Made by a program: the position numbers and the translations under genes. A stretch of 64,000 bases of DNA from Sphaerisporangium rubeum (GTDB lineage: Bacteria; Actinomycetota; Actinomycetes; Streptosporangiales; Streptosporangiaceae), in NCBI RefSeq assembly GCF_014207705.1, contig NZ_JACHIU010000001.1, positions 1,240,001 through 1,304,000 on the forward strand, in the 5' to 3' direction. Every line of letters begins with the position of its first letter. Position 1 is the first letter of the stretch. Below the pieces are notes generated by a model, which searched no databases, had not been told where the DNA came from, and saw only the letters and a list, made by a program, of their open reading frames with translations. Shown in pieces: positions 7,643 through 18,801 of the stretch.

Positions 7643-7748
7643 CCCCGTCCCACCCCTTATCGGTTCCTTACGGCTCGGTCCTCGCTCTGGCCACCGGGCC
7701 GTCCACCGGTGAGACTGGCTGGCGCACGCCGACAACGAGGAGCCGACG

Positions 7749-8282
7749 ATGAGAGCACGGCTGGCGGTGACCGGTCTCGTCATGGCGGGAACGCTGGGGC
7801 TCGCGGGCTGCGGCACACCGGCACGTGACGCGGCCCCGGCGGGTGACGCCGCGCCGGCCCCGGCCGCGACGGCGAGCACAGGTGTGTACGACTTCAGCGT
7901 GGCGACCCTCGACGGCGGCACCTTCGAGGGCCGCGGCCTCGCCGGCAGGCCCGCCGTGCTGTGGTTCTGGGCCCCATGGTGTCCCACCTGCCTCGGCCAG
8001 GCGAAACAGGTGAACGCGCTGGCCGCCGGCTACGCCGGCAAGGCCAACGTGGTCGGCGTGGCCGGCCTGGACGAGGTGCCGGCGATGCACGAGTTCGTCC
8101 GCATGGCGAAACTGTCCGGCTTCCCCCAGCTCGCCGACGAGCAGGGCCTGGTGTGGAAACGCTTCGGCATGACCGCGCAGAGCACCTTCGTCGTCCTCGA
8201 CGCCGACGGCAAGGTCACCGCACGCGGCCACCTCGACCCCGCCGACCTGCCTGGGACTCTCGACAAGCTGCTGGCGAGCTGA
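7749..8282 (+). CDS. TlpA/ResA-like thioredoxin lipoprotein
   Basis: A 177-aa lipoprotein with lipobox LAGC (Cys21), an Ala/Pro-rich tether to about residue 45, then a thioredoxin-fold domain with WFWAPWCPTC as the CxxC active site. The later segment STFVVLDADGKV supplies the cis-Pro-side strand, although the usual cis-proline is not obvious. It likely reduces disulfides outside the membrane. The CcdA-like protein encoded 99 bp downstream would supply electrons. Confidence 0.88.
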   Translation: MRARLAVTGLVMAGTLGLAGCGTPARDAAPAGDAAPAPAATASTGVYDFSVATLDGGTFEGRGLAGRPAVLWFWAPWCPTCLGQAKQVNALAAGYAGKANVVGVAGLDEVPAMHEFVRMAKLSGFPQLADEQGLVWKRFGMTAQSTFVVLDADGKVTARGHLDPADLPGTLDKLLAS

Positions 8283-8380: not shown

Positions 8381-9241
8381 ATGCCGGACGCACCCCTGGC
8401 GCTCGCCGTCGCCGCCGGGACGGTGGCCGCGGTGAACCCCTGCGGGTTCGCGCTCCTCCCCGCCTACCTGTCGCTCCTGGTGGCGGGGGACGGCGGCCGC
8501 GGCGCGGCGGTGGGCCGCGCGCTGGCCGCCACCGCGGCGATGACCGCCGGTTTCGTGGCGGTGTTCGGCGTGTTCGGCCTCGTCCTGACACCGGTCGCCG
8601 GCGCCGTGCAGCGGCACCTGCCGTGGGTCACGATCGTCGTCGGCGTCCTGCTGACCGTGCTCGGCATGCTGCTCCTGGCCGGCAGGCGCCTTCCCGGCCT
8701 CGGCACGCTCGTGTCACGCGGCCCGGCCGTCGGCCCCTCCCCGCTCTCGATGGCGCTGTTCGGCATGTCGTACGCGGTGGCGTCCCTGTCGTGCACCGTG
8801 GGCCCGTTCCTCGCCATCGTCGTGACCAGCTTCCGCGCCGGTTCCCTCGTCTCCGGCGTGGCCCTCTTCGTGGCGTACGCCGCCGGCATGGGCCTGACCG
8901 TCGCCGTGGCCGCGCTCGCCGTGGCCCTGGCCCGCGACGGCCTGCTGCGCCGCGTGCGCCGCGCGTCCCCCGTGCTGTCCCGCCTAGGCGGCGCGCTCCT
9001 CGTCCTCGCCGGCGCCTACGTCGCCTGGTACGGCTGGTACGAGATCCGTCTCTTCAACGGCGCAACCACCACCGACCCCGTGATCACCACCGCCACGTCC
9101 GTACAACGCCGCCTGTCCGAACTCCTCGACCACACCGGCCCCGCCGCCATAGCGGCGGCCTTCGCCGTCCTCCTCACCGCCGCCGCCTTGCTCTGGCAGT
9201 CCCACCGCCGCCGACGTTCCCGCACGACCGGCTCCGGCTGA
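8381..9241 (+). CDS. CcdA/DsbD-beta-like cytochrome c biogenesis membrane protein
   Basis: A 286-aa polytopic membrane protein that passes reducing equivalents from cytoplasmic thioredoxin to exported thiol proteins. The two redox cysteines are seen in the characteristic settings VNPCGFALLPAYLSLL (helix 1) and VASLSCTVGPF (helix 4). ATG 8381 begins MPDAPLALAVAAGTV directly before the first helix. It pairs with the TlpA-like lipoprotein upstream. The 98-bp gap between them has short GC-rich repeats of the phrase ATGCCGGAC. Confidence 0.88.
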   Translation: MPDAPLALAVAAGTVAAVNPCGFALLPAYLSLLVAGDGGRGAAVGRALAATAAMTAGFVAVFGVFGLVLTPVAGAVQRHLPWVTIVVGVLLTVLGMLLLAGRRLPGLGTLVSRGPAVGPSPLSMALFGMSYAVASLSCTVGPFLAIVVTSFRAGSLVSGVALFVAYAAGMGLTVAVAALAVALARDGLLRRVRRASPVLSRLGGALLVLAGAYVAWYGWYEIRLFNGATTTDPVITTATSVQRRLSELLDHTGPAAIAAAFAVLLTAAALLWQSHRRRRSRTTGSG

Positions 9242-10195: not shown

Positions 10196-11182
10196 TCAGC
10201 GGACGACGATCACATGCTCTCCCCGCACCGTCAGTTCGCCGATCACCGTGGCCCCCGGCACCTCGCCGGCGATCAGCAGGCCGCCGGAGGTCTGCGCGTC
10301 GGCCAGCAGGAGCATCGTCTCCTCGTCGGCGTCGCCGGTGAGGTGAGGGGTGACCCAGTCGAGGTTGCGGCGGGTTCCGCCGGGGACGTAGCCGGCGCGG
10401 ACGGCTTCGCGTGCGCCGTCGAGCAGGGGGACGGCGGAGGGGTCGAGCACGGCGGTGACGCCGGAGGCGCGGGCCAGTTTGAACAGGTGGCCGAGGAGGC
10501 CGAAGCCGGTGACGTCGGTGGCGCAGCGGACGCCGGCGGTCACCGCGGCTTCGGCGGCGTCGGCGTTGAGACGGGTCATGGTCGCGACGGCCTCGGGGAA
10601 GACCTCGCCGGTCGCCTTGTGCCGGTTGTTGAGGACGCCGAGGCCGAGGGGCTTGGTCACCGACAGCGGGAGGCCGGGACGGCCGGCGTCGTTGCGCATG
10701 AGCTTCGCGGGGTCGGCGAGGCCGGTGACGGCCATGCCGTACTTCGGCTCCTGGTCGGTGACGCTGTGGCCGCCGGCGACGTGGCAGCCGGCGAGCGCGG
10801 CCACCTCGGCGCCGCCGCGCAGGACCTCGCGGGCCAGGTCGTACGGCAGGGTCTCGCGGGGCCAGCACAGCAGGTTGAGTGCCATCAGGGGACGGCCACC
10901 CATGGCGTACACGTCGGAGAGCGCGTTGGCGGCGGCGATGCGTCCCCAGTCGTACGGGTCGTCCACCACGGGGGTGAAGAAGTCGGCGGTGCTCACCACG
11001 GCCGTGCCGCGCTCGATGCGGACCACGGCGGCGTCGTCCCCGGTGTCGAGCCCGACGAGCAACTCACCTGACGGGTCGTCCGGGGTGGTGAGCCCCATGC
11101 CGGCGAGGACGTCCTCCAGTTCCCCCGGGGGGATCTTGCACGCGCAGCCGCCGCCTTGAGCGTATTGAGTCAACCTCAGCAT
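10196..11182 (-). CDS. selD: Selenide, water dikinase (selenophosphate synthetase)
   Basis: A 328-aa enzyme making selenophosphate from selenide and ATP, the selenium donor for Sec-tRNA formation. The glycine-rich N-terminal active-site loop reads GGGCACK; Cys13 and Lys16 correspond to the catalytic Cys/Lys of E. coli SelD, so this is a Cys form, not a selenoprotein. Other landmarks are STADFFTPVVDDPYDWG, ANALSDVYAMGG and DVTGFGLLGHL. It is divergent from selA with only 47 bp between the starts, so a shared bidirectional promoter is likely. Confidence 0.96.
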   Translation of the reverse strand: MLRLTQYAQGGGCACKIPPGELEDVLAGMGLTTPDDPSGELLVGLDTGDDAAVVRIERGTAVVSTADFFTPVVDDPYDWGRIAAANALSDVYAMGGRPLMALNLLCWPRETLPYDLAREVLRGGAEVAALAGCHVAGGHSVTDQEPKYGMAVTGLADPAKLMRNDAGRPGLPLSVTKPLGLGVLNNRHKATGEVFPEAVATMTRLNADAAEAAVTAGVRCATDVTGFGLLGHLFKLARASGVTAVLDPSAVPLLDGAREAVRAGYVPGGTRRNLDWVTPHLTGDADEETMLLLADAQTSGGLLIAGEVPGATVIGELTVRGEHVIVVR

Positions 11183-11229: not shown

Positions 11230-12516
11230 GTGACTGATCATCGTCGGCAGATTCCACGGACCGATGCCGTGCTGGACGACCCCCGCCTCGCGCCGTTCGT
11301 CCTGCGGATGGGGAGGGACCGGGTGAAGGCGGCCGTCAACGCCGCGCAGCGAAAAGCCAGGAACGGCGAGATAAGACCCTCCGACGTCCGCGACGAGACG
11401 CTGCGCGCGCTGCCGGGTGACGCGCCACGCCAGGTGATCAACGCCACCGGTGTGCTCCTGCACACCAACCTCGGCCGCGCGCCGCTGTCCACGGCCGCGC
11501 TCGACGCGATCCGCGTCGCCGGCGGCACCACCGACGTCGAGTTCGACGTCGGCACCGGCCGCCGGGGCAGGCGCGGCGGGGCCGCGCTCGCGGCGCTCGC
11601 GCACGCCGTACCGGACGCCGAGGCGGTGCACGTGGTCAACAACAACGCCGCCGCGCTGGTGCTGGCCGCGACCGCGCTGGCCCGGGACCGCGAGATCGTC
11701 ATCAGCCGCGGCGAACTGGTCGAGATCGGCGACGGCTTCCGCCTGCCGGAGCTGCTGGAGTCCACCGGCGCACGGCTGCGCGAGGTCGGCACCACCAACC
11801 GGACGTCGGTGGCCGACTACGCCGCCGCGATCGGCCCGCGTACCGGGTTCGTGCTGAAGGTCCATCCCTCGAACTACCGGATCGAGGGATTCGCCGCCAC
11901 ACCGTCCGTCGGCGAGCTGGCGGGTCTCGGCGTCCCGCTGGTCGGCGACATCGGCTCGGGGCTGCTCGCGCCTGAGCCGCTCCTGCCGGACGAGCCGGAC
12001 GCGGCGACGTGGCTGCGCGCCGGCGCCGACCTGGTCACGGCCAGCGGCGACAAACTGCTCGGCGGCCCCCAGTGCGGCCTGCTGCTCGGCCGCGCCGGAC
12101 CGGTGGAGACCGTGCGCAGGCATCCGGTGGCCCGCGCGCTGCGCGTCGACAAACTGACCCTGGCCGCCTTGACCGCCACACTCGTCCACACCGCCAACCC
12201 CACACGTGACGCGCTGCGCGCCGACCCCGCGCAGTTGCGCCGCCGCGCCGGCGCGCTGGTCGTACGGCTCGCCGCGGCCGGGGTGAAGGCCGAGGCCGTG
12301 GACACCGGGGCCGCGGTCGGCGGCGGCGGCGCGCCAGGCGTCGAGCTGCCGAGCGCGGCGGTCGCCGTGGACGGGGCCCTGGCCGGGCCGCTGCGCCTCG
12401 GGTCGCCGTCGGTGGCAGGCAGAGTCGAAGGCGGACGCTGCCTGCTCGACCTGCGGGCCGTCGCGCCGCAACAGGACGAGGACCTGCTCGCCGCGGTGGT
12501 GGCCGCGTGCTCGTGA
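11230..12516 (+). CDS. selA: L-seryl-tRNA(Sec) selenium transferase
   Basis: A 428-aa PLP enzyme that converts seryl-tRNA(Sec) to selenocysteinyl-tRNA(Sec). Conserved blocks are INATGVLLHTNLGRAPLS, RGELVEIGDGFRLPELL and the PLP-lysine region TASGDKLLGGPQ (Lys275). The GTG at 11230 is the start used here. The 3' end overlaps selB by 10 nt, so the two are translationally coupled. Confidence 0.96.
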   Translation: MTDHRRQIPRTDAVLDDPRLAPFVLRMGRDRVKAAVNAAQRKARNGEIRPSDVRDETLRALPGDAPRQVINATGVLLHTNLGRAPLSTAALDAIRVAGGTTDVEFDVGTGRRGRRGGAALAALAHAVPDAEAVHVVNNNAAALVLAATALARDREIVISRGELVEIGDGFRLPELLESTGARLREVGTTNRTSVADYAAAIGPRTGFVLKVHPSNYRIEGFAATPSVGELAGLGVPLVGDIGSGLLAPEPLLPDEPDAATWLRAGADLVTASGDKLLGGPQCGLLLGRAGPVETVRRHPVARALRVDKLTLAALTATLVHTANPTRDALRADPAQLRRRAGALVVRLAAAGVKAEAVDTGAAVGGGGAPGVELPSAAVAVDGALAGPLRLGSPSVAGRVEGGRCLLDLRAVAPQQDEDLLAAVVAACS

Positions 12517-14207
12517 TCGCGACGGCGGGCCACGTCGACCACGGCAAGTCGTCCCTGCTGCGCGCGCTGACCGGCATGGAGCCCGACCGCTGGGAGGAGG
12601 AACGCCGCCGCGGGCTGACCATCGACCTCGGCTTCGTGTGGACCGGCGGGCTCGCCTTCGTGGACGTGCCGGGCCACGAGCGGTTCGTCGCCAACATGCT
12701 CGCCGGCGTCGGCCCCGCGCCTGCGGTGCTGTTCGTGGTGGCCGCCGACGCGGGGTGGGCCGTGCAGTCCGAGGAGCACCTTGACATCATCGACGCGCTC
12801 GGCATCTCGTGCGGTGTGCTCGCGGTCACCCGCGCCGACCTCGCCGACCCCGCGCCGGCCATGGCGGACTGCCGCGAACGGCTCGCCGGCACCGGCCTGG
12901 CGGACGTGCCGGTGGTCGCGGTCAGCGCGGTCACCGGCCAGGGCCTCCCCGAGCTGCGCGCGGCGCTGACGGCGCTCGCGCCACCGGAGCCCGCGCCGGA
13001 GGCGGACGTGCGCCTCTGGATCGACCGGGTCTTCACCGTCGAGGGACGCGGGACCGTCGTCACCGGGACGCTCGGCGCGGGGACGATCAGGACCGGTGAC
13101 CGGCTCCGCCTGGGGAGCGGCGACGTGCGCGTCCGCGGCCTGCACAGCCTCCAGCGCGCTCGCGACGAGGTCACCGGCCCCGCCAGGGTCGCGGTGAACC
13201 TGCGCGGCGGCGACCGGCCCCGCCGGGGGGACGCGCTGGTGGCACCGGGGAAGTGGCTCGACGTGACGGTGGCCGACATCCGGTTCACCGGCGAGGACCG
13301 GCCGCCTGAGCACGTCATCTGGCACATCGGGACCGCGGCGGAACCCGCGCGGCTGCGTCCGCTCGGCGACGACACCGCACGCGTGACGCCGGCCAGGAGG
13401 CTGCCGCTGCGCGCCGGCGACCGCGCGCTGCTCCGCGATCCCGGCAGCCGCCGCGTGTGGCGTGCGGACGTGCTCGACGTACGGCCCCCCGAGCTGCGCC
13501 GCAGAGGAGCCGCGAAGGCCCGCGCCGCCGAGCTGGCCGGCCTGCGCGGGGCCCCCGACGGTACGGCCGAGCTGCGGCGGCGGGGTCTCGCCAGGCGCGG
13601 CGAGCTGGCCGCCATGGGGGCTCCGGTGACGATCGAACCCGTCGCGGGGGAGTGGGTGGCCGATCCGGCGCACTGGGAGGCGCTGCGGGTACGGCTCGTG
13701 GAGATCGTGACCGCGCGCACCGCGCGCGACCCGGCGGACCCGGGGATGGCCGTGGAGGAGGTCCGGCAGGCGCTCGGCCTGCCGGACCTCGCGCTGGTGC
13801 GCGCGCTGGCCGAGGGGACCACGCTGCGGCGGGTACGCGGCCGGCTGACGGCCGCGCCGCCGGCGCTCGCTCCGGGGATCGGCGAGCTGCGGCGGGGCTG
13901 GGCCGCCGAGCCGTTCGCCGCGCCGGACGCCGACCGGCTCGCGGCGCTCGGCCTGGACGCGCGGGCCCTGGCGGCGGCGGAGGCGGCCGGAGCACTGGTG
14001 CGCCTGGCCCCCGGTGTCGTGCTGCCACCCGGCGCGGTGGAGGCGGCGGCCGGTGTGCTCGCGCGGCTGCCTCAGCCGTTCACGGCGGCGGACGCGCGGG
14101 TCGCGCTCGGCACGTCCCGCCGGGTGGTCATCCCGCTGCTCGAACACCTCGACCGGGTGGGGGTCACGAGGCGGACGGACACGTCGCTCCGGGAAATACC
14201 GTCATAG
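12507..14207 (+). CDS. selB: Selenocysteine-specific translation elongation factor
   Basis: A 566-aa GTPase that brings Sec-tRNA(Sec) to UGA codons marked by a SECIS hairpin. The G domain has G1 GHVDHGKSSLL, G2 RRGLTIDLGF, G3 DVPGHERF and the G4-like TRAD. Domains II/III follow (RGTVVTGTLGAGTI). The C-terminal third has the winged-helix repeats that bind SECIS RNA, ending in the typical HLDRVGVTRR. The GTG start overlaps the selA stop. It is shorter than the 614 aa of E. coli SelB but complete in layout. Confidence 0.96.
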   Translation: MLVIATAGHVDHGKSSLLRALTGMEPDRWEEERRRGLTIDLGFVWTGGLAFVDVPGHERFVANMLAGVGPAPAVLFVVAADAGWAVQSEEHLDIIDALGISCGVLAVTRADLADPAPAMADCRERLAGTGLADVPVVAVSAVTGQGLPELRAALTALAPPEPAPEADVRLWIDRVFTVEGRGTVVTGTLGAGTIRTGDRLRLGSGDVRVRGLHSLQRARDEVTGPARVAVNLRGGDRPRRGDALVAPGKWLDVTVADIRFTGEDRPPEHVIWHIGTAAEPARLRPLGDDTARVTPARRLPLRAGDRALLRDPGSRRVWRADVLDVRPPELRRRGAAKARAAELAGLRGAPDGTAELRRRGLARRGELAAMGAPVTIEPVAGEWVADPAHWEALRVRLVEIVTARTARDPADPGMAVEEVRQALGLPDLALVRALAEGTTLRRVRGRLTAAPPALAPGIGELRRGWAAEPFAAPDADRLAALGLDARALAAAEAAGALVRLAPGVVLPPGAVEAAAGVLARLPQPFTAADARVALGTSRRVVIPLLEHLDRVGVTRRTDTSLREIPS

Positions 14208-14296: not shown

Positions 14297-14389
14297 GGAG
14301 ACGTCCAGGTGCCTGGTGGCCCTCCTGGTCTTCAAAACCGGTGGCGCCGAGGATCTCGGCGCGGCGGGTTCGATTCCCGTCCGTCTCCG
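14297..14389 (+). tRNA. selC: tRNA-Sec (anticodon UCA)
   Basis: A 93-nt cloverleaf with the hallmarks of tRNA-Sec: anticodon TCA (14332-14334) in loop CTTCAAA, a very long variable arm (GCGCCGAG-GAT-CTCGGCGC, 8-bp stem), T arm GCGGG-TTCGATT-CCCGT, and an extended acceptor stem GGAGACGT against CCGTCTCC with one mismatch at its base. The discriminator is G and CCA is not encoded. It lies 90 bp after selB. Confidence 0.95.
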
Positions 14390-14464
14390 CTGCCTGTCGT
14401 GAGCACCGATCCCCTTGACATGAGGTTGTTCGCCAACCAACTCGTGAGGTCGGCTGGAATTCGC

Positions 14465-15214
14465 ATGAGATTTCTCCTGCTCGGGCACTTCGAGATCCAT
14501 CGGCCGGACGGCGGGCTCCTCGCCGTCACCAGGATCAAGCACCGTCAACTGCTCGCACTCCTGCTGCTCGACGCGCCGCACGCGGTCTCGACCGACCGCT
14601 GCATCGCCACCCTCTGGGGGGAACAGGCCCCGGCGTCGGCACGCAGGAACCTGCAGACGTACGTCGCGGACCTCCGCAAAGGCCTCACCTGCTCCGGCGT
14701 GGCCATCGAGACCGTGCCGGGTGGGTACCGGGTGACGGACGTCGCCGACCGCCTCGACCTGTCGGCGTTCGAGTCCAAACGGTCGGAAGCCGCGATGGCC
14801 GCGAGCGCGCGTGACGACGCGGCGGCCGTGCGTACGCTCAGGGACGCGCTGGTGCTGTGGCGCGGCTCGGCGCTGCAGGACCTCGCCGACAGCTCCGAAG
14901 CGCTGCGGAACGCCGCGCTCCAGCTCAACGAGCGCCGCATGGCGGCGGTGAGCGACTACGCGGCCGGATGCGTGCGGCTCGGCGCGTACGAGGAGGCCAT
15001 CGACCAGTTACGGCTCGCCGTCACCTGGGCCCCGCTGCGGGAGGACCTGCGCGCTCAGCTGATGCTGGCGCTGCACAAGAGCGGCCGGCGGGCCGACGCG
15101 CTGCTCGCCTACCACGAATGCCGGGCCGCGATGGTCGAACGGATCGGCGTCGGGCCGTCCCAGACGCTGACGACCCTGTACGACCGGATCCTGATGGAGG
15201 ACCAGAGCCTGTAG
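14465..15214 (+). CDS. SARP-family transcriptional activator (DnrI-like, no ATPase domain)
   Basis: A 249-aa regulator: an OmpR-like winged helix (MRFLLLGHFEIHRPDGG to about residue 95) followed by a BTAD domain (about 100-245) with ALVLWRGSALQDLADS and AYHECRAAMVERIGVGPS. I chose ATG 14465 because the conserved SARP start begins there; an in-frame ATG at 14420 adds 15 unconserved residues. It sits between tRNA-Sec and the Mau-like cluster, on the same strand as both, and is a plausible activator of that cluster. Confidence 0.87.
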   Translation: MRFLLLGHFEIHRPDGGLLAVTRIKHRQLLALLLLDAPHAVSTDRCIATLWGEQAPASARRNLQTYVADLRKGLTCSGVAIETVPGGYRVTDVADRLDLSAFESKRSEAAMAASARDDAAAVRTLRDALVLWRGSALQDLADSSEALRNAALQLNERRMAAVSDYAAGCVRLGAYEEAIDQLRLAVTWAPLREDLRAQLMLALHKSGRRADALLAYHECRAAMVERIGVGPSQTLTTLYDRILMEDQSL

Positions 15215-15312: not shown

Positions 15313-15981
15313 ATGCCGGCACGAACCCCCGACGGCCGCACCCTGATGGTCGACAGCCCCCAGCCGTTCACCATGGGCTGGAGCTACATGGTCTGGGCCT
15401 ACGGCGCGGACGGCAACTTCCGCTTCCACACCGCGGCCGCCGGAGCGCGGGAACTCATCTCGCGCCAGCTCGGCGAGTACGACCGGTTCACCGTGCGCGA
15501 GGTCTCCTGGAACGGAGCCCGGCTGGTGTCGCACGAGGACCCCGCGAACGGCGGGACCACGATGCTGTGGATCGGCCCGCACCACGAGATCTACACCTAC
15601 GTCCCCGGCGTGAACGTCGCCTTCGAGGCGTTCATGGGCCTGCTCTCCGGCTTCGAGATCGACGACGCTCCTGACGGGGTCGTCCTCGCGCCTCGGCCCG
15701 GCTCGGCCACGCGGCTCACCAACCTGCTCGCGTTCAACACGCTACGAGACGTGTGCTCGGTCCAGGTGAACCCCGTGGCCGACCTGCCGGCGCCTGGCGG
15801 CACCGGCAAGCGGGTGCGCGGCGGCTCGCTGTGGAAGCTCGACGAGCGGCGCGCGGACGGCAAGGTCCTGCGGTCGGCCATCATCGTCAACGAGACGACG
15901 ACCGCCACCCTCGTCGCACGGCGGGCCGACGACCCGGGCTTCGCGGCCGTCGCCGACTCCATCAAGTTCAAGCTCAACTGA
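15313..15981 (+). CDS. Conserved-looking hypothetical protein, first gene of the Mau-like cluster
   Basis: A 222-aa protein I do not recognise. It starts MPARTPDGRTLMVDSPQPF with AGGAG 7 nt upstream and has no signal peptide or clear membrane segment. It is rich in beta-strand-like stretches (WSYMVWAYG, TMLWIGPHHEIYTYVPG, GSLWKLDERRADG) and ends IKFKLN. One Cys (DVCSVQV) is present. The next gene starts 5 bp after its stop, so it belongs to the operon with the MauD-, MauA- and MauE-like genes. Function unknown. Confidence 0.75.
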   Translation: MPARTPDGRTLMVDSPQPFTMGWSYMVWAYGADGNFRFHTAAAGARELISRQLGEYDRFTVREVSWNGARLVSHEDPANGGTTMLWIGPHHEIYTYVPGVNVAFEAFMGLLSGFEIDDAPDGVVLAPRPGSATRLTNLLAFNTLRDVCSVQVNPVADLPAPGGTGKRVRGGSLWKLDERRADGKVLRSAIIVNETTTATLVARRADDPGFAAVADSIKFKLN

Positions 15982-15986
15982 CGGCC

Positions 15987-16496
15987 ATGCAGAACGTCGT
16001 CAACTCCCTGGCCGTGTTCGCGTTCCTCGGCATGGTCATCGCGCTGTTCGCCATCTCCGCACTGCTGCGTACCGTGCGGGAACTACGGCAGGCGGTGCTC
16101 GCCACCCCCGTCCCCGCGACCCCGGCCGTACGCAGGATCGCGCGCTTCCAGTCACCCGACGAGCGGCCGACGTACGTCCTGGTCGTGACCGAGCAGTGCC
16201 TGAGCTGCCGTGAACGCGCCGCGCACCTGGCCGTCATCCCACCCGGCCTCCTCCAGGGCCACCTGACGCTGCTCGGCTCGACCGACGCCGGCGCGCGGTG
16301 GGTCCACGGCGCCGACCACATCACCGTCGTCGCCGACGCCGAGCTGCTCGGCGCCGTCGCCGTCGGCGCCACCCCGTCGCTGGTGAAGTACGCCGCCGAC
16401 GGCACCGAGGAATGGCGCCGCGTCGTCGGGTCCGACGGGGACCTGGAGCGGCTCCTCGGCGTGACCGAATCGTCGAACGTCCCGAACGTGAGGTGA
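15987..16496 (+). CDS. Membrane-anchored thioredoxin-like protein (MauD-like)
   Basis: A 169-aa protein with an N-terminal membrane anchor (about residues 8-28) and an outward-facing thioredoxin-like domain. The putative redox motif is EQCLSCRER (Cys71, Cys74) after the strand TYVLVVT. ALLGAVAVGATPSLVKY-like sequence near the end supplies the cis-Pro strand (GATPSLV). MauD proteins help form or protect the disulfides of the methylamine dehydrogenase light chain, and the next gene encodes a Cys-rich exported protein of that style. No extended Mau catalytic genes are seen here. Confidence 0.72.
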   Translation: MQNVVNSLAVFAFLGMVIALFAISALLRTVRELRQAVLATPVPATPAVRRIARFQSPDERPTYVLVVTEQCLSCRERAAHLAVIPPGLLQGHLTLLGSTDAGARWVHGADHITVVADAELLGAVAVGATPSLVKYAADGTEEWRRVVGSDGDLERLLGVTESSNVPNVR

Positions 16497-16500
16497 ACGC

Positions 16501-17022
16501 ATGACCATCAACTCGATCGACTACTGGTCCGACGTGCCGTCGGCGGAGGACGACGACACCCCGTCGTCCCCGGGGCCGCGGCGCGCGGCGTGGCCGAAGG
16601 TGTCCCGCCGCACGATGTTCAAATCGGTCGGCGTGCTCGGCGGCGCGCTCGCGCTGAACGTCGTCGGGGCCCTGCCTCCGGCACGGCTCAAGGGTGCCTC
16701 GGCGACCGTGGGGAACGAGTACGGCAACTGCGGCGACCCTGGGTACAACAACTGGACCGGCTACAAGGACGGCACCACCCAGACCGCCTGCGTCGGCGCG
16801 CCGTACTCCAGCGGCTACTGCGGCAGCGACGGCTGGTTCCGCACCGACGGCAACTCCTACTCGTACTACACCCCCGTCAAGGCCTGCGGCGAAGGCAGCG
16901 CCACCAAGAAGAACGCATGGCGCTGGACCTACAGCGGCACGCCGTACCGCTGCGCCGACGGCACCTTCACGGTGTACGGGGCCGGCACCACGTTCTACAT
17001 CTGCTCACGGGCGAACCCCTGA
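16501..17022 (+). CDS. TAT-exported Cys-rich protein resembling methylamine dehydrogenase light chain (MauA-like)
   Basis: A 173-aa protein with a long N-terminal stretch, a twin-arginine signal (SRRTMFK, residues 35-41, followed by a hydrophobic run to about 60) and a small exported domain. That domain holds six Cys (77, 97, 107, 129, 151, 168), several Trp and the ending TTFYICSRANP, reminiscent of the disulfide-rich, Trp-quinone MauA subunit. Overall similarity is weak and no heavy-chain gene is nearby, so calling it an amine dehydrogenase subunit would be too strong. TAT export implies folding before export. Confidence 0.68.
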   Translation: MTINSIDYWSDVPSAEDDDTPSSPGPRRAAWPKVSRRTMFKSVGVLGGALALNVVGALPPARLKGASATVGNEYGNCGDPGYNNWTGYKDGTTQTACVGAPYSSGYCGSDGWFRTDGNSYSYYTPVKACGEGSATKKNAWRWTYSGTPYRCADGTFTVYGAGTTFYICSRANP

Positions 17023-17025
17023 CCG

Positions 17026-17748
17026 ATGAGCACACGCGCACTCACCGCTCCACGGGTGGCCGTCCTCCTGCTCCTCGCGGCGCTCGCGCTCACCGCGACG
17101 GACCAGGTCCTGACGGGCCGTTTCGACCTGCTCGCCTGGACGCTGATGGGGATCACCGCGGGGTTCTCCCTGTCGGGATCCGTTTGAAGCCTCAACTCGG
17201 CGGATCTGCTCACCTCGTCGGTCTGGCGGGGACAGGTGACGGCGTTCTCGACCGGTCTCGTCGTAGGCGGGCTGGTCTCGGGGACGATCGTCGGGGCCTT
17301 CGGAGGCCTCGTTTCAGTGGTGCCCGAGATCGGGCGGTTCTGGGTTCTCGTGCCGCTCGTCGCGGTCATCATGGTGTTCGAGCTCGCGGGCCGGCCGTTG
17401 CAACTCATCCAGAACCGCAGGCTCGTCCCGCAGGAGATCATCCCGCGTAGCCGGTTCGAAGGGCCGTTCCAGTTCGGCTTCGAGATGGGCACCGGGGTGC
17501 GCACCTTCTCCCCGACGGCGCTGCCGCACGCGCTGGTGCTGGTGATCGTGCTGATCGGCGGTCTGCTTCCCGGGGTGCTCGCCGGGCTCGGCTTCGGTCT
17601 CGGCCGGGTGCTGATGCCTGTCACCCGCTCGTTCAGCGGGGACCCCGAGGGCTGGGATCGCGTCCTGCTCCGCCGGCTCGCCTGGGTGGGGCGGATCTGC
17701 GCGGCCGGATTCCTGCTGGCCCTGCTCGTCGTCCTGCTGGGTGGCTGA
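17026..17748 (+). CDS. Polytopic membrane protein with in-frame UGA (candidate selenoprotein, Sec54)
   Basis: The frame opens at ATG 17026, three bases after the MauA-like gene, and is open to TGA 17746 except for one TGA at 17185-17187 (codon 54). Codons on both sides keep the strong G/C third-position bias of neighbouring genes, and the total product (about 240 aa, six hydrophobic segments) makes sense only as one protein. The sequence around the stop is FSLSGSV-UGA-SLNSAD, at the outer end of the second hydrophobic segment. With selA, selB, selD and tRNA-Sec 3 kb upstream, Sec insertion is my preferred reading. The alternatives are a nonsense pseudogene, a sequence error, or a shorter protein from GTG 17236 that would lack two membrane segments. 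Confidence 0.6.
17210..17239 (+). promoter_or_regulatory. SECIS-like hairpin downstream of the in-frame UGA
   Basis: TCACCT (17210-17215) pairs with AGGTGA (17234-17239). After a bulged C, GTC (17217-17219) pairs with GAC (17231-17233). This leaves an 11-nt apical loop GGTCTGGCGGG that starts with GG. The loop begins 32 nt after the UGA. A small G-starting loop at roughly this distance is what bacterial SECIS models expect, and E. coli fdhF also has GGUCU in its loop. Drawn by eye, not folded by software. Confidence 0.45.
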
Positions 17749-17751
17749 CCG

Positions 17752-18255
17752 ATGATCCTCATCGCCGACCTGGCCCTGGCGGGAGCCGTGCTCCTGGTGG
17801 TGGCCGGTCTGCGGCGCCGTGCCCGCGGGGACGCGATCCTCCGCGGGCACGGGCTGCTGCCGCCGTGGGTCATCCGGTGCGCCGTGGTGGCCGAGCCGCT
17901 GATCGGCGCCGCGGCCGTCCTGACGTGGGTCGCCGGCGGCCGGACCTGGTACGTCTGGGTGCCGGCGGCGGTGTGGCACGCCGCGCTCGCCGTGTACCTC
18001 ACCGTGCTGCTCCGCGTGCGGGGACGGGTGCCGTGCGGCTGCCTCGACGAGGTGAGCCGCGTGTCACCGGTGAAGATCGCCTTCGGTGTGCTGCTGGCGG
18101 CGGCGAGCGCGGCGGCCTGCGCCGTCCCGCCGCCGCAGGAACCGGTCACGCGCCTTCTCCATGTCGCGCCTGCCGCCTTCGCGGCGCTGCTGGTGGTCGT
18201 CGCGACACGGGTGGCCGAGCTCACGGGAACCTCAGGTGGCCGGGGACAGTACTAG
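17752..18255 (+). CDS. MauE/DoxX-like redox-associated membrane protein
   Basis: A 167-aa protein with about four membrane helices (ADLALAGAVLLVVAGL; AVVAEPLIGAAAVLTWVAG; VWHAALAVYLTVLLRV; FGVLLAAASAAAC). It has a CxC pair in VPCGCLDEVS on a loop after the third helix. This matches the MauE/DoxX-type family that transfers electrons to exported thioredoxin-like partners. It starts 3 bp after the candidate selenoprotein and likely works with it and with the MauD-like protein. Confidence 0.78.
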   Translation: MILIADLALAGAVLLVVAGLRRRARGDAILRGHGLLPPWVIRCAVVAEPLIGAAAVLTWVAGGRTWYVWVPAAVWHAALAVYLTVLLRVRGRVPCGCLDEVSRVSPVKIAFGVLLAAASAAACAVPPPQEPVTRLLHVAPAAFAALLVVVATRVAELTGTSGGRGQY

Positions 18256-18288: not shown

Positions 18289-18801
18289 ATGACGCGTTGG
18301 ACGTTGATTCCCCTGGCCTGCGCCGTGCTGGCCCTGTCGTCCTGCGCCGCGGGTGCGGCCACCCCCGCGGCGTCCCCTGCCGAGGTCCTGCTCGACCCGG
18401 CCAAGGTGCCGGGGGGCCCGTGGCGGGCCACCGTGACCGACTCGGTCCGCTGGTCCGCGCTGGACGAGGCGTTCATCCCGTGCGGCAAGCGCGTCATCGC
18501 ACCGGAGCAGGCCACGGTACGTCTGCGGCTGTTCACCTCCGCCGGCGGCGCCTCGCTCCACGAACTGGTGGTGTCCGGTGTGGACCCGGTCCAGGCGTTC
18601 AAGCGCTTCTACGCCGAATGCGGCGCGGTGGGCAAGGTGTCCAGCGAACCCGGCCCCCAGCACGTGGCCCGCCACGACGGCAAGGTGGAGATCGCCTCGT
18701 ACACGGAGAGGTTCCTCGTCGTCGTCAGTGCTCCTGACACGATCGAGGACCTCTCGGCCGTCGCCGACGCCGCGACGGCCCAGGCGTCCGAAGGGGACTG
18801 A
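18289..18801 (+). CDS. Putative lipoprotein closing the Mau-like cluster
   Basis: A 170-aa protein with signal peptide and lipobox LSSC (Cys19). The mature part shows no family I recognise. It has two further Cys (FIPCGKRV and YAECGAVG) that could form a disulfide. It follows the MauE-like gene by 33 bp with a likely GGTTCGAG ribosome site, so it is probably part of the same transcript. Confidence 0.7.
   Translation: MTRWTLIPLACAVLALSSCAAGAATPAASPAEVLLDPAKVPGGPWRATVTDSVRWSALDEAFIPCGKRVIAPEQATVRLRLFTSAGGASLHELVVSGVDPVQAFKRFYAECGAVGKVSSEPGPQHVARHDGKVEIASYTERFLVVVSAPDTIEDLSAVADAATAQASEGD

Follow-up and report, generated by a model that had tools for sequence, protein, structure and literature searches.

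A putative selenocysteine-containing membrane protein family probably related to CcdA/DsbD, encoded beside selenocysteine genes in Sphaerisporangium rubeum

A 64,000-nucleotide stretch of the Sphaerisporangium rubeum genome (contig NZ_JACHIU010000001.1, positions 1,240,001 to 1,304,000; hereafter, the window) was found to carry, downstream of genes for selenocysteine (Sec) decoding, a gene for an integral membrane protein whose frame contains a UGA at codon 54 (Table 1). Comparison with homologues indicates that this UGA is almost certainly decoded as Sec. The overall reading that we prefer, to which we give a probability of about 0.8, is that UGA 17185 would be decoded by the adjacent sel machinery, aided by a hairpin just downstream, and that the protein would belong to a new family related to CcdA/DsbD that acts in a membrane thiol relay.

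Table 1 Features of the window discussed in the text (positions are those of the window).
Feature	Position	Strand	Basis or remark
selD, with Cys (GGGCACK) in place of Sec	10196..11182	-	TIGR00476, 392.2 bits (cut-off 125)
selA	11230..12516	+	TIGR00474, 405.5 bits (cut-off 267.9)
selB	12507..14207	+	SelB-wing_3 and GTP_EFTU above cut-off; TIGR00475, 227.1 bits, slightly below cut-off (242.25)
tRNA-Sec, anticodon UCA	14297..14390	+	Rfam RF01852, 72.6 bits
SARP/BTAD regulator	14465..15214	+	Common to the Herbidospora, Nonomuraea and Acrocarpospora loci
P15, conserved cassette protein of unknown fold	15313..15981	+	In 51 of 55 loci of at least 6 kb; no PDB match at E 1
Thioredoxin-like protein, hydrophobic N-terminus, CLSC	15987..16496	+	CxxC and one Pro invariant in 16 sequences
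Cys/Trp-rich protein, twin-arginine-like N-terminus	16501..17022	+	Conservation in 32 sequences
Predicted Sec-containing integral membrane protein	17026..17748	+	240 aa, motif SGSVUSLNSA, probable distant CcdA/DsbD relative; homologues, hydropathy
In-frame UGA, codon 54, predicted to be read as Sec	17185..17187	+	Falls on the CcdA TM1 catalytic Cys via distant members
SECIS-like hairpin, CCUCGUCG - GUC - UGGCGGGG	17213..17231	+	Starts 25 nt after the UGA; pairing, covariation, spacing
MauE-like membrane protein, CxC (VPCGCL)	17752..18255	+	Pfam PF07291, 38.4 bits (cut-off 27)
Small lipoprotein-like gene, neighbour of the cassette in close relatives	18289..18801	+	Matches in 23 loci

The initial annotation had proposed recoding from the layout of the gene, and its description was accurate. 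The frame is open from ATG 17026 to TGA 17746–17748 apart from TGA 17185–17187, both junctions with the neighbouring genes read TGA-CCG-ATG with a 3-nt gap, and codons end in G or C on either side of the UGA (46 of 53 codons before it and 168 of 186 after it). This last signal is weak evidence of recoding when taken alone, since a scan of the 64-kb window returned 11 in-frame UGAs with open flanks similarly rich in third-position G and C, including UGA 17185 and the gene's own stop. It is the comparison of homologues that settles the point.

Within the genus, a search of 11 genomes, including that of the window, gave matches in three genomes at four places, each with one in-frame TGA. A profile search of 297 family genomes then identified 96 places in 81 genomes, and 95 of these contain an in-frame TGA (one TGA in 93 places, two in 2); the only place without one, L096, is a truncated copy from which the region is absent. 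The position of the motif was inspected at 71 of the 96; the UGA lies within the motif, mostly SGS[VTP]U[ST]xN, at 69 of them, and in L094 it was found at a similar profile position. No Cys form of the window's own subfamily was seen in the family places inspected. Residues upstream and downstream of the UGA are kept together in the homologues, and dN was lower than dS both before and after it in 10 of 11 pairs. The nearest relatives of the window protein are found in Herbidospora, Nonomuraea and Acrocarpospora (75–78% identity), followed by Actinoplanes sandaracinus (65%).

The search was extended to 396 genomes of the phylum, of which 19 were matched by a first profile and 73 by a broader one, the latter count taking in Cys forms as well as a few matches that are CcdA-like or partial. 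The commonest distant motif in the first 19 genomes was WSP[UC]GxSM, and a profile comparison showed the distant type and the close type, to which the window protein belongs, to be homologous (probability 98.7, E 3e-16). Of the 77 places obtained with the broader profile, 70 loci were examined; 67 reach the Sec/Cys column and three fall short of it. The column holds Sec (UGA) in 57 of these 67 loci, the window's own included, Cys in the remaining 10, and nothing else. The Cys forms occur in distant branches only, and two of the 10 are CcdA-like proteins. A quick tree of 88 rows, rooted at its midpoint, shows three changes of the Sec/Cys label, one for the CcdA-like pair and one for each of two distinct Cys clades (SH-aLRT 99 and 82). 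The alignment that the initial annotation had called for thus gave U or C alone at the codon-54 column wherever it could be read; conservation spans the UGA instead of beginning near 17236, and the constraint on both sides of it leaves no sign of a second, decayed frame.

The hairpin downstream of the UGA has the features expected of a SECIS-like element, its first loop base lying 36 nt downstream of the U of the UGA. The close type, represented by 59 distinct sequences, has a stem of 7 bp closed by a 3-nt loop at a fixed place after the UGA, with 412 of 413 stem cells paired (99.8%, versus 39–50% when the stem was slid) and a covariation score of 0.331 (0.194 in shuffled alignments and at most 0.205 in slid ones). 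Cells altered on both sides of the stem numbered 17 versus 4.7 in shuffles, yet two slid controls gave 21 and 18, and the counts of covarying stem pairs and of pair types were not above those of shuffles (346 of 500). One stem pair occurs as U-G in 34 sequences, U-A in 10 and G-C in 15. Arg codon choice compensates for the stem changes, CGG or CGA accompanying UCG (44/44) and CGC accompanying GCG (15/15) without exception. At the same spacing, a hairpin of at least 6 bp was present in 86 of 89 UGA loci, compared to 247 of 1374 control windows and neither of the two Cys loci. The hairpin fits the published bSECIS model, which, in the part of the source consulted, has a G among the first apical-loop bases and a spacing of 16–37 nt (PMC13188914). 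Folding of the window region by itself was no better than that of shuffles (z 0.03), and Rfam placed no SECIS family at the hairpin. A small further branch, represented by L095 (4910–5542, minus strand; GTSUGLNAAG), has an in-frame UGA, with no stem of 6 bp or more at the usual spacing.

The sel genes and tRNA-Sec that had been read upstream of the gene were all confirmed by family models (Table 1). To follow the machinery in other genomes, selA was searched for, with selB scored at the loci. In the same 297 family genomes, selA had any match in 213, a match over the cut-off in 173 and a strong match, by a cut of our own, in 177. All 81 carriers of the Sec gene have a strong selA, versus 177 of the 297 genomes overall, a co-occurrence with a hypergeometric probability of 3e-23 if the genomes were independent; since they are related, such P values overstate independence. 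Among 18 distant genomes tested, selA was present in 16, all with UGA forms, and absent in G430 and G678, the two Cys-form genomes of the set, so that the co-occurrence anticipated by the initial annotation was borne out for selA in the genomes tested. As for its further suggestion that the sel genes and the neighbouring cassette may form one unit, at least 18 of the 81 family genomes have the starts of selA and of the Sec gene no more than about 10 kb apart; in others selA is far off or on another contig.

Formate dehydrogenase (FDH) is another user of the sel machinery, and a search of 20 genomes found an FDH with one in-frame TGA in 16 of them. No FDH over the cut-off was found in three carriers of the Sec gene among these 20 (G095, G091 and G116). 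The FDH of the window genome has no in-frame stop and reads QARVCHSS where that of the congener G009 reads QARIUHSA; being of the Cys type, it was ruled out as a user of the sel genes there. The claim that nothing else needs these genes therefore holds for FDH and selD, the two for which it was examined here, and because both are Cys forms, Sec decoding in this S. rubeum strain may serve chiefly the membrane protein. The pair formed by the Cys-type FDH (L142, G000:C1:5740900-5744250) and its Sec-type congener (L143) is a Sec/Cys exchange inside the genus.

Two other readings of the UGA were weighed against decoding as Sec. Translation table 11 ends the frame at UGA 17185, the next listed open reading frame runs from 17236, and comparable flanks surround several other in-frame UGAs of the window, all of which would suit an ordinary stop in a split or decayed gene, or one followed by a restart near GTG 17236. 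This is most improbable, as conservation is joint across a UGA present in 95 of 96 places, 10 of 11 pairs have dN below dS before and after it, and the two selA-less genomes tested have Cys at the position. The Sec reading is supported by comparison, not by chemistry, which leaves room for readthrough with an ordinary amino acid; the co-occurrence with selA, the closeness of the sel genes in 18 genomes or more, the alternation of UGA with Cys alone and the conserved hairpin make such readthrough just as improbable.

With the UGA taken as a Sec codon, profile comparisons indicate that the family is very probably related to CcdA/DsbD. Compared to an alignment of 20 CcdA proteins and the window's own CcdA, the distant-type profile matched over nearly its whole length (probability 92.4, E 5e-7), and its SPU fell on SPC, the first catalytic Cys of CcdA, in TM1. 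A DsbD_2 search of 20 genomes retrieved five distant Sec proteins at E 0.01 or better, two of which (G522 and G479) passed the cut-off and three scored below it, while a DsbD_TM search of 20 genomes matched three Sec proteins, all below the cut-off; the single-protein scores of L047 were just short (26.8 of 27.1 and 24.0 of 24.9). The window subfamily showed no direct similarity to CcdA by profile comparison (probability 1.6), and the window protein had no Pfam match; the subfamily is tied to CcdA because the close type matches the distant type and the distant type matches CcdA. Searched against the PDB, the Sec-family profile had no match better than E 0.43. The second CcdA Cys (TPC, TM4) had no counterpart, column 54 being the one invariant Cys/Sec column in 40 sequences. 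The family thus resembles the CcdA/DsbD transmembrane domain (PF02683, PF13386) in the alignment of its distant type, with Sec on the SPC cysteine, but differs from it by Sec in place of Cys, by the missing TPC cysteine, by a different cassette and by a window subfamily too divergent for a direct match. CcdA/DsbD carriers export reductant. Upstream of selD, the window also encodes a lipoprotein-like protein with an FWAPWC motif (7713–8279, plus strand) and an ordinary two-Cys CcdA-like protein (NPCGFALLP, LSCTVGPF; 8402–9241, plus strand).

The genes around the Sec gene were counted in 55 loci of at least 6 kb, one genome, Rhizohabitans, being counted twice. P15, the thioredoxin-like gene and the gene for the Cys/Trp-rich protein (Tat-type in what follows) accompany the Sec gene in 49 of the 55 loci. 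Within 6 kb and on the same strand, the set is joined by MauE in 35 loci, and 19 of the 55 gave no MauE by this criterion. The shorter close-type loci, 33 in number at 31 distinct places, all have the thioredoxin-like gene and the Tat-type protein. At distant loci, profile searches found the thioredoxin-like gene and, in many cases, MauE; the Tat-type protein was matched in L060 only and P15 nowhere. By eye, a Cys-rich RR-protein with a small protein beside it, of the same look as the cassette genes, was seen at some distant loci. Of two Cys-form loci inspected, L122 keeps such a set, while only a CcdA-like gene was seen at L123. The Sec proteins of L231 and L236, which come from other actinobacteria, carry MauE as a fused C-terminal domain (68.9 and 60.4 bits, above the cut-off). 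The profile of the thioredoxin-like family matched thioredoxin-fold chains, e.g., MPT53 and DsbF (best E 8e-6), and Pfam gave no meaningful match for the single window protein. In 32 sequences of the Tat-type protein, one Arg of the RR, five Cys, a WxW and the Asp of a CxD are invariant; the match to the TAT_signal model reached E 0.16 only. A PADLOC search found nothing.

The initial annotation had described a MauD/MauA/MauE-like cluster, of which MauE passes its family model and the MauD-like member is a thioredoxin-fold protein, but MauA is unsupported. A MauA-like protein (MADH light chain) was rejected after no cassette protein matched in the Pfam scan, in PDB profile searches or in PF02975 searches of 1 and 22 genomes. 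The cassette is therefore comparable to the mau maturation genes (mauE/mauD) in its MauE and its thioredoxin-like partner, but has no PF02975 light chain, with a Sec CcdA-like protein and P15 instead.

Because the putative Sec lies at the first membrane cysteine of CcdA and the second is missing, a one-residue carrier that would need an outside partner thiol is suggested. In a membrane thiol relay, the selenol would be the active group, taking electrons from the cytoplasm and exchanging them with the thioredoxin-like protein outside, which in turn could reduce or isomerise disulfides of the exported Cys/Trp-rich protein, its proposed substrate. Such a relay function has, in our estimate, slightly better than even odds. 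The CxC of MauE, a candidate because of the MauE fusions and the neighbourhood, might be a second partner, a role that we propose tentatively. Reducing and oxidising directions of the relay are both candidates.

If oxidising, the Sec protein would be DsbB- or VKOR-like and, together with MauE and the thioredoxin-like protein, would form disulfides in the Cys-rich protein, passing electrons to quinone. The similarity found is to CcdA/DsbD carriers, which are reductant exporters, and makes this direction rather unlikely. In its favour, the exported protein is Cys-rich, and MauE has been speculated, in the part of the source consulted, to aid disulfide-bridge formation in the MADH beta subunit (PMC7794033). 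The single invariant Cys/Sec column could also belong to a terminal catalyst that its neighbours only serve, such as a peroxidase in the membrane or a selenol that handles metals or metalloids; the cassette partners and the MauE fusions point instead to thiol exchange, and we consider such a catalyst improbable. Returning to the thiol relay, a broader and doubtful extension would be that a membrane redox system dependent on selenium is widespread in Actinomycetota. In it, a CcdA-like protein that kept a single active residue, as Sec, would borrow its second partner from MauE and serve the new exported Cys/WxW protein, which may have a redox or Trp-derived cofactor of its own, and Sec decoding could be kept without FDH.

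To place the family among known selenoproteins, it was compared by description with the 119 families and subfamilies in Table 1 of a 2026 catalogue (PMC13188914), several entries of which have no motif in the part consulted, and was recognised in none of them. The matches listed in the literature included no paper on it, the candidate list of a groundwater survey (reference 66 of PMC13188914) lying outside the comparison. With NCBIfam, the window protein and 20 relatives (16 Sec and 4 Cys, some as the post-UGA part only) reached no cut-off, the best score, 16.4 bits, being at chance level, and no NCBIfam or Pfam model scanned recognises the family, DsbD models apart. On the basis of the catalogue and the literature found, we call it a new selenoprotein family, as far as we have seen, which would also be a new variant of CcdA-like carriers; other lists may hold it.

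The claim that such a protein is not among known families stands for the catalogue entries as consulted, but membrane or DsbD-like selenoproteins as such are already known. The entries consulted include TsoB (rhodanese/DsbD fusion-like), the YeeE/YedE type, the mercuric transport protein and the SO_0444 family, which share with the present family Sec in membrane or DsbD-like proteins and differ from it in motif where one is listed; no NCBIfam cut-off was reached here (PMC13188914). The genes are probably annotated as truncated proteins. Matched in 81 of the 297 genomes searched within one taxonomic family and in 73 of the 396 searched across the phylum, the protein family is widespread; it would give actinobacterial Sec use a purpose other than FDH, would make Sec the active residue of a membrane thiol carrier and opens the roles of MauE- and MauD-like proteins to testing.

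Variants in gene arrangement were also seen. Phytoactinopolyspora limicola (L110) has two Sec genes about 3 kb apart, with cassette genes in opposite orientation, and the Cys-rich RR-proteins beside the distant Sec genes of L047 and L055 carry C-terminal LGFP repeats.
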